Shown: piece by piece, positions 22,638 through 62,609 of the stretch
Position numbering within the stretch: the first letter of the stretch is position 1
How the letters are laid out: the number at the start of each line of letters is the position of its first letter
Assembly (NCBI RefSeq): GCF_004362045.1
Contig: NZ_SNWX01000002.1
Coordinates: forward strand, 62,001 to 126,000
Reading direction: 5' to 3'
Source of the DNA: Halanaerobium saccharolyticum
GTDB taxonomy: Bacteria > Bacillota > Halanaerobiia > Halanaerobiales > Halanaerobiaceae
DNA length: 64,000 bases
The notes under the pieces: model-generated
Told to the model about the DNA's origin: nothing
Seen by the model: the letters and a program-made list of their open reading frames with translations, nothing else
The model's database searches: none
Translations under genes and position numbers: made by a program

Positions 22638-22819
22638 ATATTTAATTTGATTCTGCTGATCAGCAGAAAAAAAAGTGAGTATTTTAGAGAAAAATTATCT
22701 TTAATTAGAGCTCAGCTTGAAATTTGTTTGTAGATTCGCATTGTGATATTTGTGATTTTTCGGCAGATGTATTAAGATAAAAATAGTTAATTAAAAATTG
22801 AATAGTTTTAAATAAGGGT

Positions 22820-23040
22820 TTCAGTCACTATTTTGGCGTTAATAGCGAAAATAACTGATTGAATTAAAATGGGAAAGAGGTTAAAAACCTCTGCGGTCCC
22901 GCCGCCGTAAGGTTTAAAGATAATCAAAATTGCCACTGGGAAACTGGGAAGGCTGATTATTAACTGAACCGAGCCGGAAGACCTGCCTTTATTTATAAAC
23001 ACCATAAACTCACGGGTCATGAGGGGTGTTAGAGCAGATT
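22820..23040 (+). promoter_or_regulatory. Cobalamin (B12) riboswitch
   Basis: The conserved cobalamin-aptamer blocks occur in order: GGGAA followed by GGTTAAAAACC (22871-22889), GCGGTCCCGCCGCCGTAA (22893-22910), GCCACTGGGAA (22932-22942), and the B12 box AGCCGGAAGACCTGCC (22972-22987). The kissing-loop/expression region follows to about 23040. It lies upstream of nrdD, with an intrinsic terminator at 23185 between them, so B12 most likely turns the operon off. The exact 5' end is approximate. Confidence 0.93.
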
Positions 23041-59962: not shown

Positions 59963-59991
59963 TTGACAAAAATCGTAAATATGGATATCAT
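59963..59991 (+). promoter_or_regulatory. Promoter of the riboswitch-tup operon
   Basis: TTGACA (59963-59968) and TATCAT (59986-59991) are 17 bases apart. Transcription should start near 59998, just before the aptamer. Confidence 0.75.
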
Positions 59992-60009
59992 TAATGTAAG
60001 AATTGTCGC

Positions 60010-60110
60010 ACAACTCCGAGTGCTTTTAAGCTAAAACTTTTAAGTAATGCTTACTGCACCGATAGGGTCTAAAGGGAAACGTTTAGGCCTCCCGGAATGG
60101 AAAGGAGTGA
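60010..60110 (+). promoter_or_regulatory. Moco/Tuco-type riboswitch aptamer
   Basis: The outer stem P1 pairs ACTCC (60013-60017) with GGAGT (60104-60108). Inside are GTGC/GCAC with TAAGC/GCTTA, and a second arm where GGG and TCTAAA pair with TTTAG and CCTCCCGG. The GGCCTCCCGGAATGGAAAGGAG segment end is as in the Moco RNA family. It precedes tupABC for tungstate uptake, which fits sensing of molybdenum or tungsten cofactor. Assignment rests on remembered consensus and context. Confidence 0.75.
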
Positions 60111-60114
60111 TTAA

Positions 60115-60144
60115 ATGGATTGCATTAGTGTTAATCCGCCCTAA
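60115..60144 (+). CDS. Nine-codon leader ORF (MDCISVNPP)
   Basis: ATG at 60115 lies seven bases after AAAGGAG, which is also the 3' strand of the riboswitch P1 stem. The frame ends Pro-Pro-TAA, and the last A of the stop is the first base of the terminator stem. Translation would be blocked when P1 forms, and a ribosome at the stop would cover the left arm of the terminator. Expression is inferred. Confidence 0.5.
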   Translation: MDCISVNPP

Positions 60145-60178
60145 AACTTCCGGTTTGCTGCCGGAAGTTTATTTTTTT
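60144..60178 (+). terminator. Terminator between the leader ORF and tupA
   Basis: AAACTTCCGG pairs perfectly with CCGGAAGTTT (10 bp) around seven bases, followed by ATTTTTTT. It is the expression platform of the riboswitch. Confidence 0.93.
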
Positions 60179-60266: not shown

Positions 60267-61094
60267 ATGTCAATTAAAAAGATTATTTTTACAATATTTA
60301 TTTTTGCGCTGATTTTCAGTTCAGCTGCAGCCGGCCAGGAAGTTCTAACAATGGCCACCACAACCAGTACTGAGAACTCAGGTTTACTGGAAGAACTGCT
60401 GCCGCCTTTTGAAGAAAAATTTGAGGTGAGGGTAGATGTTGTAGCAGTCGGAACCGGGGCGGCTATAGAGCTGGGGCGGAATGGGGATGCAGATATAATT
60501 TTTGTTCATGCCAGAGAGGCAGAAAATGAATTTGTAGCCAATGGCTATGGAGTGAACAGAAGAGATGTGATGTATAATGATTTTGTTATTTTAGGACCAC
60601 CATCTGATCCAGCCGGGATTAAAGAAACAGAGACTGCTGTAGAAGCTTTCCAGAAGATTGAATCAGAGGGAGCAGAGTTTATTTCCCGGGGTGATGATTC
60701 AGGTACTAATAAAAAAGAATTATCTCTCTGGGATAATGCCGGAATTACACCTGATGGAAGCTGGTATTTAGAAAGTGGTCAGGGAATGGGGCCCAGTATA
60801 AATATGGCAAATGAACGTCAGGCCTATATACTGGCTGATCGGGGAACATATTTAGCCTATAGTGGAGATATTGAACTGGAAATAGTTAATAGTGGAGATC
60901 CGGTTCTGTTTAATCCTTATGGGATTATCCCAATTAATCCGGCCTATCACAGGCATGTTAACTATCAGCTGGCCATGGCTTTAACCGGATATCTAACTTC
61001 TCAGCAGGGTCAAAACATAATTAATAACTATCAGCGTTATGATGAGCAGCTCTTTTACCCATCTGCAATAGAAGCAGAGAATCTGGAAGAATAA
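60267..61094 (+). CDS. tupA: Tungstate ABC transporter binding protein
   Basis: The exported protein has 275 residues with a signal peptide (IFTIFIFALIFSSAAAGQ). The TupA oxyanion motif TMATTTSTENSGLLEELLP is followed by GTGAAIELGRNGDADIIFVH and FISRGDDSGTNKKELSLW. The TTTS motif marks high-affinity tungstate (or molybdate) binding. AGGGGGG lies before the ATG. It is the first gene of tupABC under the Moco/Tuco riboswitch. Confidence 0.94.
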   Translation: MSIKKIIFTIFIFALIFSSAAAGQEVLTMATTTSTENSGLLEELLPPFEEKFEVRVDVVAVGTGAAIELGRNGDADIIFVHAREAENEFVANGYGVNRRDVMYNDFVILGPPSDPAGIKETETAVEAFQKIESEGAEFISRGDDSGTNKKELSLWDNAGITPDGSWYLESGQGMGPSINMANERQAYILADRGTYLAYSGDIELEIVNSGDPVLFNPYGIIPINPAYHRHVNYQLAMALTGYLTSQQGQNIINNYQRYDEQLFYPSAIEAENLEE

Positions 61095-61189: not shown

Positions 61190-61894
61190 GTGGACTATTA
61201 TACTGATGCGATATTTAGGGCTCTGGAGTTAATCATAACTTTAGATTCCGAAGTTATTCAGATTGTAACAACTTCTCTTAAAATTTCTATTTCTTCAACT
61301 TTTATTGCTTCAATTATTTCTATTCCTCTGGCAATAGTGATTGCCCGCAATAAATTTAAAACAAAAAAGTTTATTAATATAATTTTAAATACACTCTTAA
61401 GCCTGCCCACAGTTGTAGTCGGGATTTTTGTATATTCACTTATTTCCAGGCGGGGAATTATGGGAGAGTTAGATCTGCTTTTTACTCCCACAGGAATTAT
61501 ATTTGGCCAGGTGCTTTTAATCATCCCCTTAATTACCGCTTTGATCAGAAATGTTATTTTTTCAATGGACGAAAAACTGTATAAAACAGCTGTCTCAATG
61601 GGTGCCAGCCGCAGACAAAAATTTAAACTTTTAATTTCAGAAGCCAGATATGGGATTATAGGTGCAGTAATTGCAGGTTTTGGCAGAGTCCTGGGTGAGA
61701 TTGGTGTTTCAATGATGCTGGGTGGTAATATTAAGGGAGTTACCCGGACTATTACCACAGCAATGTCACTGGAAACAAACAAAGGCCGCTTTGCTTTTGC
61801 TTTAGCTTTAGGTATCATACTCCTGTCATTATCATTTTTAATAAATTTAATTACTTATTATCTGCAGGAGGGAAAAAATTATGCAAGAAGATAA
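61190..61894 (+). CDS. tupB: Tungstate ABC transporter permease
   Basis: The 234-residue membrane protein has five to six hydrophobic helices and the ABC permease loop KTAVSMGASRRQKFKLLISEA. The pattern LSLPTVVVGIFVYSLISRRG is typical of TupB/CysT-type permeases. GTG at 61190 follows CAGGAGG; the overlapping ATG at 61188 is in another frame and stops after 14 codons. It overlaps tupC by 14 bases. Confidence 0.93.
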   Translation: MDYYTDAIFRALELIITLDSEVIQIVTTSLKISISSTFIASIISIPLAIVIARNKFKTKKFINIILNTLLSLPTVVVGIFVYSLISRRGIMGELDLLFTPTGIIFGQVLLIIPLITALIRNVIFSMDEKLYKTAVSMGASRRQKFKLLISEARYGIIGAVIAGFGRVLGEIGVSMMLGGNIKGVTRTITTAMSLETNKGRFAFALALGIILLSLSFLINLITYYLQEGKNYARR

Positions 61895-62609
61895 AATTAT
61901 TGAATTAAAAAATATAGAAAAAATATGTGGAGATAGGAAAATTTTAAATATTGATAATTTTGCTGTCTTAAAAAATAAATTTAATTTTATTATTGGAGGT
62001 AATGGAAGTGGTAAAACCTCTCTCTTAAATATTCTATGTCTGGTTGATCAGGATTATCAGGGTCATCTGTATTATAAAGGTCAAAAGATAAATAAAGAGC
62101 AGCAAAATTTGGAATTGAGACGCAAATTTTCTGTGATCTGGCAGGATCCATATCTCTACCGGGGTGATGTCTTTTATAATATTGCTCTACCGTTAAAACT
62201 GAGAAATATTAATCAAAATTTGATCAATAAAAAAGTAAAAGAAATAGCTGCCAGACTGGAGATTCAGAATTTATTAGAACAATCTGCCCACACTCTTTCG
62301 GGAGGGGAAAGACAGAAAACTTCAATTGCCCGGGCTTTAATTACAGAGCCGGAGATTTTATTTGTAGATGAAGCGACAACAAATCTGGATGAGGAAAGTA
62401 TTCAATTTTTTAATTCACATTTTGCTGATTTAGTAACAGATGAGATGACTGTTGTTATGGTCAGCCATGATCGAAGGCAGATAAAACAGCTGGCAGATCA
62501 GATAACTTTACTTAAAAATGGGGAAATAAAAACAACTAAAAAGCTTAATAATTTCAATTTTGAACTATTTGGTGCAGGAATTGAAAGCCCCATAGTAGAA
62601 ATAGTTTAA
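61881..62609 (+). CDS. tupC: Tungstate ABC transporter ATPase
   Basis: The 242-residue ATPase has Walker A GGNGSGKTS at about 38-46, the Q-loop VIWQDPYLYRGDVF, signature LSGGERQKTSIARAL, Walker B ILFVDEATTN (with Ala for the usual Pro) and HisH in VSHDRR. There is no C-terminal regulatory (TOBE/molbindin) domain. It pairs with TupAB. AGGAGG lies before the ATG within tupB. Confidence 0.93.
   Translation: MQEDKIIELKNIEKICGDRKILNIDNFAVLKNKFNFIIGGNGSGKTSLLNILCLVDQDYQGHLYYKGQKINKEQQNLELRRKFSVIWQDPYLYRGDVFYNIALPLKLRNINQNLINKKVKEIAARLEIQNLLEQSAHTLSGGERQKTSIARALITEPEILFVDEATTNLDEESIQFFNSHFADLVTDEMTVVMVSHDRRQIKQLADQITLLKNGEIKTTKKLNNFNFELFGAGIESPIVEIV

Follow-up and report, generated by a model that had tools for sequence, protein, structure and literature searches.

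Upstream of the tungstate-uptake genes tupABC of a Halanaerobium-like bacterium lies a leader with a riboswitch aptamer, a nine-codon open reading frame (ORF), and an intrinsic terminator. This arrangement raises the question of whether the switch operates by refolding of the leader RNA or through translation of the ORF. The initial annotation of this DNA opted for translation, with a ribosome at the end of the ORF keeping the terminator open. All the physical features that it listed are present. The features discussed here are listed in Table 1; positions refer to the window, which is the whole stretch of 64,000 nucleotides that was analysed.

Table 1 Features of the tup leader and downstream genes in the window.
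Feature	Position	Strand	Remarks
Sigma-70-type promoter TTGACA-17-TATCAT	59963-59991	+	11/12 consensus matches
Moco/Tuco riboswitch aptamer	60002-60123	+	RF01055 model limits, P3-less form
P1 5' strand ACUCC	60013-60017	+	RF01055 alignment
Predicted anti-terminator strand 1, CCGGAA, aptamer loop P5	60092-60097	+	Pairs with 60148-60153, probability 0.97 in nascent RNA
P1 3' strand GGAGU and preceding A	60103-60108	+	Also Shine-Dalgarno (SD) sequence of the ORF and predicted anti-terminator strand 2
Predicted anti-terminator inner hairpin, GAUUAA 60109-60114 / UUAAUC 60131-60136	60109-60136	+	Folding; alternative GGAUU/AAUCC hairpin in relatives
Nine-codon ORF, MDCISVNPP-stop	60115-60144	+	SD in P1; function putative
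Intrinsic terminator	60144-60178	+	Left arm 60144-60154, right arm 60160-60170, U tract 60172-60178
tupA, tungstate-binding protein	60267-61094	+	NCBIfam TupA E 1.3e-71, 241 bits, below the curated 400-bit cut-off
tupB, permease	61190-61894	+	ABC_perm1 213.6 bits, above cut-off; TupB profile 197.5 bits, below cut-off
tupC, ABC ATPase	61881-62609	+	Named by position, the family profiles being unspecific; Pfam ABC_tran 4.4e-26; TupC profile 101 bits, below cut-off

The leader had been assigned to the Moco/Tuco riboswitch class, and a covariation-model search agrees with the assignment. The match to RF01055 covers the full model (1-135) and exceeds the cut-off of 36 bits with a score of 68.8 (E = 1.8e-14), which is far beyond chance. 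The P3-less form of the aptamer has been associated with Tuco (Regulski et al. 2008, PMC2408646). Stem P1 pairs ACUCC with GGAGU (60104-60108). Because the promoter ends at 59991, transcription probably starts near 59998, just 5' of the aptamer. As annotated, the leader is located upstream of Mo/W uptake genes, tupA, tupB, and tupC, and the RNA is probably a sensor of the Mo/W cofactor. The Moco/Tuco cofactor is unstable and labile. The tup genes match their profiles, with all NCBIfam Tup models scoring under their cut-offs, and tupA has its own SD-like sequence, AGGGGGG, 5' of its start. The putative TupC has 242 residues compared to the 319 positions of the TupC profile, and models of FtsE-type ATPases give it higher scores. 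The window also contains a cobalamin riboswitch (RF00174, 103.5 bits) at positions 22799-23004 of the + strand.

The terminator, which lies between the aptamer and tupA, is composed of a stem of 11 pairs and a seven-U tract. Its presence was correctly recognized in the initial annotation, as was the sharing of A60144, where the stop codon of the ORF ends and the stem begins. What was overlooked is a base-paired anti-terminator that is predicted to use the left arm and to exclude P1. The CCGGAA of aptamer loop P5 is complementary to UUCCGG in the left arm. The AGG at the start of the 3' strand of P1 (60103-60105) pairs with CCU (60140-60142), which runs from the final bases of the last Pro codon into the stop codon, whose first base it includes.

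The leader was folded at growing transcript lengths. The probability of P1 is 0.5-0.8 up to position 60148. When the transcript reaches 60153-60157, the anti-terminator has a probability of 0.97 and P1 of 0.00. From 60170 on, the terminator dominates with probabilities of 0.96-0.97, reaching 0.97 in the full leader. The folding energies, which describe the RNA alone with no term for ligand, tertiary contacts, salt, or kinetics, put the anti-terminator 4.8 kcal/mol ahead of P1 in the nascent RNA; for the full leader they put P1 with the terminator 6.5 kcal/mol ahead of the anti-terminator. As modelled, P1, the anti-terminator, and the terminator compete with one another in the way that is typical of transcriptional OFF riboswitches, and a ribosome would be unnecessary. 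The prevention of termination had been ascribed to a ribosome paused at Pro-Pro-stop; the predicted anti-terminator would achieve it ribosome-free, in competition with P1, and bases of the codons at the supposed pause site are among those that pair with the 3' strand of P1. The SD is indeed inside P1, but its release in the ligand-free state is not predicted by folding: it is 0.29-0.38 unpaired before the left arm emerges and 0.24 unpaired in the anti-terminator of the window, no more than at the lengths where P1 prevails (0.29-0.32).

We therefore favour, with a probability of about 0.8, the reading that the leader controls tupABC as a Moco/Tuco riboswitch whose platform is of the ordinary transcriptional kind. 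When cofactor is bound, the aptamer would hold P1 and loop P5, leaving the left arm free, so that the terminator would form and tungstate uptake would be off. The OFF polarity put forward in the initial annotation is probably right. In the absence of cofactor, UUCCGG would pair with loop P5 once the left arm has been transcribed, CCU would pair with the AGG of P1, and P1 would be dissolved. The left arm would be held until RNA polymerase has passed, and tupABC would be transcribed, with translation starting from its own SD. Control would probably be kinetic, and translation would have no required role. Since ordinary RNA refolding would account for both the off and on states, a mini-gene would be superfluous as an explanation, although the ORF is partly conserved. 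The nine-codon ORF would be mainly a by-product, because its SD belongs to the aptamer consensus (GGAAAGGAG), and because sequences that can pair with a purine-rich P1 strand of the GGAG type will often read CCN CCN.

The anti-terminator was compared among relatives. A search with RF01055 in 38 genomes of the order gave matches in 27 of them, at 54 places. The aptamer precedes tupA in all ten genomes of the genus that have tupA; the other two of the 12 genus genomes have neither tupA nor any RF01055 match. In the TupA tree, the window groups with L036, L019, L039, L022/L038, and L035 (clade A). L031 and the pair of L005 and L007 belong to the same genus outside clade A, and L014 and L041 represent sister genera. 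The leaders of L022 and L038 are identical, and L038 was left uncounted as a duplicate. The anti-terminator is predicted in all six distinct leaders of clade A (window, L036, L035, L019, L022, and L039), and in L031, L005, L007, and L041. In the unliganded nascent RNA of these leaders, it is preferred over P1 by 1.1 to 10.9 kcal/mol. The exception is L014, where the preference is only 0.1 kcal/mol in one framing, and the anti-terminator is dominant in a slightly different framing. A TupA search of GTDB-220 contigs for further relatives gave four Halanaerobium rows and no more, and these are apparently genomes of the set already compared.

Ten distinct tup leaders have a TTCCGG arm, and every one of them keeps the CCGGA of the aptamer loop and the UCCGG of the arm; the CCGGAA/UUCCGG pairs are invariant within the group, and covariation therefore cannot probe them. 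Across the same ten leaders, the right arm of the terminator drifts by wobble (CCGGAA, CCGGGA, CTGGAA). A fixed left arm next to a drifting right arm would be expected if the left arm has two partners. The downstream part of the window leader has a better pairing partner in its own aptamer than in 98% of the foreign Moco aptamers, and the corresponding range for the ten TTCCGG-arm leaders is 93-99%. In L005 and L007, UACUCU or UACUCC stands against GGAGUA, and the anti-terminator is kept with no Pro-Pro-stop; the clade A counterpart of this pairing is AUCCGCC facing GGAGUGAU.

Two wider comparisons were set aside. The association of loop and arm has a p of 5e-9 over all terminator leaders, but a Fisher p of 0.30 without the tup lineage, and was dropped as independent proof because one lineage drives the signal. 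When arms were swapped among all Moco terminator leaders, the own arm gave 3.08 against 2.88 expected pairs. This is no average own-arm preference, because GGAAAGGAG is common to the leaders, and only the group-specific comparison is informative. The survey of Moco leaders left out 28 of 129 phylum loci, in which the core motif was not found. L003 and L018 were cut at guessed arms in the folding comparison, and their values carry little weight.

Other Moco riboswitches of the order are organized in diverse ways. The genome of the window has a second one (L001, C18:56671-56789), located directly 5' of an ORF that resembles aldehyde ferredoxin oxidoreductase, as judged by eye. UAUACC just 5' of its P1 is complementary to GGUAUA in the SD region, which suggests a translational platform. 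A similar layout occurs in L008, L012, L015, L016, L020, L030, and L033. Order-level Moco switches such as L009, L026, L040, L044, and L048 have clearly different platforms and lie before different Mo/W genes, and there are often several per genome. Their platforms either conceal the SD in an extended P1 or combine a terminator with a P1-strand anti-terminator.

The nine-codon ORF is present as annotated. It reads ATG GAT TGC ATT AGT GTT AAT CCG CCC TAA, and its start is 7 nt past GGAG, a good placement for the SD that the initial annotation had identified in the 3' strand of P1. In seven percent of dinucleotide-shuffled window spacers there is an ORF of five or more codons that has an SD spacing of 5-9 and a stop at -6 to +3 of the left arm, and the chance per leader is 2-11%. 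Taken singly, the presence of the ORF is less improbable by chance than the aptamer. An SD-placed ORF of this kind is found in seven of 11 distinct family leaders, a higher frequency than the shuffles give, which counts against regarding it as a mere by-product. Under strict limits, none of the 101 other Moco terminator leaders has an ORF in register with the terminator; under loose limits there were six candidates of 101, which were rejected.

The ORF recurs in the close relatives within clade A, and L031 has a different peptide, MIKFLNADPP-stop, with an Asp-Pro-Pro-stop end. The proposed register of SD, ORF end, and terminator start holds in the leader alignment for clade A and L031 (eight of ten same-genus leaders, two of them identical), but not for L005, L007, L014, and L041. 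(Asp/Asn)-Pro-Pro is shared by clade A and L031, and Asp-Pro-Pro is in frame in L014; the motif is absent in L005, L007, and L041, and the ORF of L041 stops 19 nt upstream of the terminator. Clade A maintains the frame and starts it with ATG or TTG; differences in spacer length are confined to the stretches upstream of the start codon and downstream of the stop codon. Because the leaders of clade A are related, they are effectively a single observation of ORF conservation. Inferred changes in the clade A ORF comprise six synonymous and five non-synonymous ones, where 22% synonymous are expected (p about 0.018); the test includes just 11 changes, several of them in bases that take part in anti-terminator or GGAUU/AAUCC hairpin pairing. 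Since these changes fall on bases that also pair, coding and RNA pairing are indistinguishable here, and the coding signal in clade A is weak and confounded.

Translation may have a secondary role in the window leader. The anti-terminator could be primary, and ribosome loading at the open P1 could, in this lineage, add read-through or guard the leader RNA. Besides the conservation of the ORF, this version draws on leaders outside clade A. The P1-SD ORF stops within the terminator loop in L007 and L014, and that of L005 (reverse complement) is open through the terminator, with a stop that overlaps the start of tupA (AATGATGA); the L005 leader and tupA could be translationally coupled. Since these ORFs reach into the terminator, a translating ribosome would unfold it in most of these leaders. 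The branches are, however, few and related, start codons are common in AT-rich spacers, and the anti-terminator would also be disturbed by a ribosome. We consider such an auxiliary function of the ribosome unlikely. Similarly doubtful is the more general proposal that in the Halanaerobium lineage the aptamer gates a nine- to eleven-codon (Asp/Asn)-Pro-Pro-stop leader, at which a ribosome keeps the terminator open, alone or with the anti-terminator.

The spacer (UGGAUUGCAUUA...AAUCC) could also be kept as an RNA hairpin, for example for polymerase pausing, rather than for its peptide, which would be compatible with the anti-terminator. Clade A keeps the hairpin while one of its pairs is G-U, A-U (L039), or G-C (L019), and the outer pair is U-G or U-A. 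The hairpin is, however, missing in L031, L005, and L007, and is partly incompatible with the predicted inner anti-terminator stem of the window, and we give it a low probability. It is very improbable that the ORF itself is the switch, with P1 gating its SD and a ribosome slowed at Asn-Pro-Pro-stop covering the left arm: the register, the start codons, the shared (Asp/Asn)-Pro-Pro, the contrast between 0/101 and the shuffle chance, and the excess of synonymous changes speak for it, but the predicted ribosome-free anti-terminator would suffice, the SD is predominantly paired in either state, Pro-Pro-stop is absent from L005 and L007, the stop of L041 lies well ahead of the terminator, the synonymous changes are partly in pairing bases, and about 65 nt from the SD to the U tract, with no identified pause, would probably leave little time.

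A leader-peptide mechanism is not exotic in principle, because attenuators of Bacillota and the coupling of a riboswitch, an upstream ORF, and Rho in M. tuberculosis are known. The bmrCD (PMC4191407) and yxjB (PMC6851288) attenuators of Bacillus subtilis resemble the proposed switch in that ribosomes on a short leader ORF control a terminator; they differ in sensing antibiotics via ribosome stalling, and in an SD that is not aptamer-gated. The pe20 Mbox of M. tuberculosis (PMC12810186) is likewise a riboswitch whose translational platform acts on a small upstream ORF and is linked to termination of transcription. It is, however, of another class with another ligand and uses Rho, whereas the window has an intrinsic terminator and a predicted base-paired anti-terminator. 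In the M. tuberculosis B12 riboswitches with translated upstream ORFs (PMC11260477), the aptamer also interacts with translation of a short ORF, but, unlike in the window, control is exerted at translation of the downstream gene.

The closest counterparts of the window leader are the Moco/Tuco candidates of Regulski et al. 2008 (PMC2408646), a founding study that relied on genetic evidence and described Moco RNAs both with the ribosome-binding site in P1 and with terminators. They are alike in the aptamer, the P3-less form, the transporter targets, and the downstream terminator. The window leader differs in that the SD in P1 serves a short ORF and not the regulated gene, and in that loop P5 joins the predicted anti-terminator. 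The window leader is thus a new tup-associated Moco RNA with an already described terminator-type platform.

Read as an ordinary switch, the leader is a further well-conserved tup case, in which loop P5 would be drawn into the predicted anti-terminator. It also exposes a trap for the prediction of leader peptides, as an anti-SD-like anti-terminator in an aptamer that bears an SD can mimic a short Pro-Pro ORF. If the ORF does matter, the leader would represent a new link from an aptamer to an intrinsic terminator.
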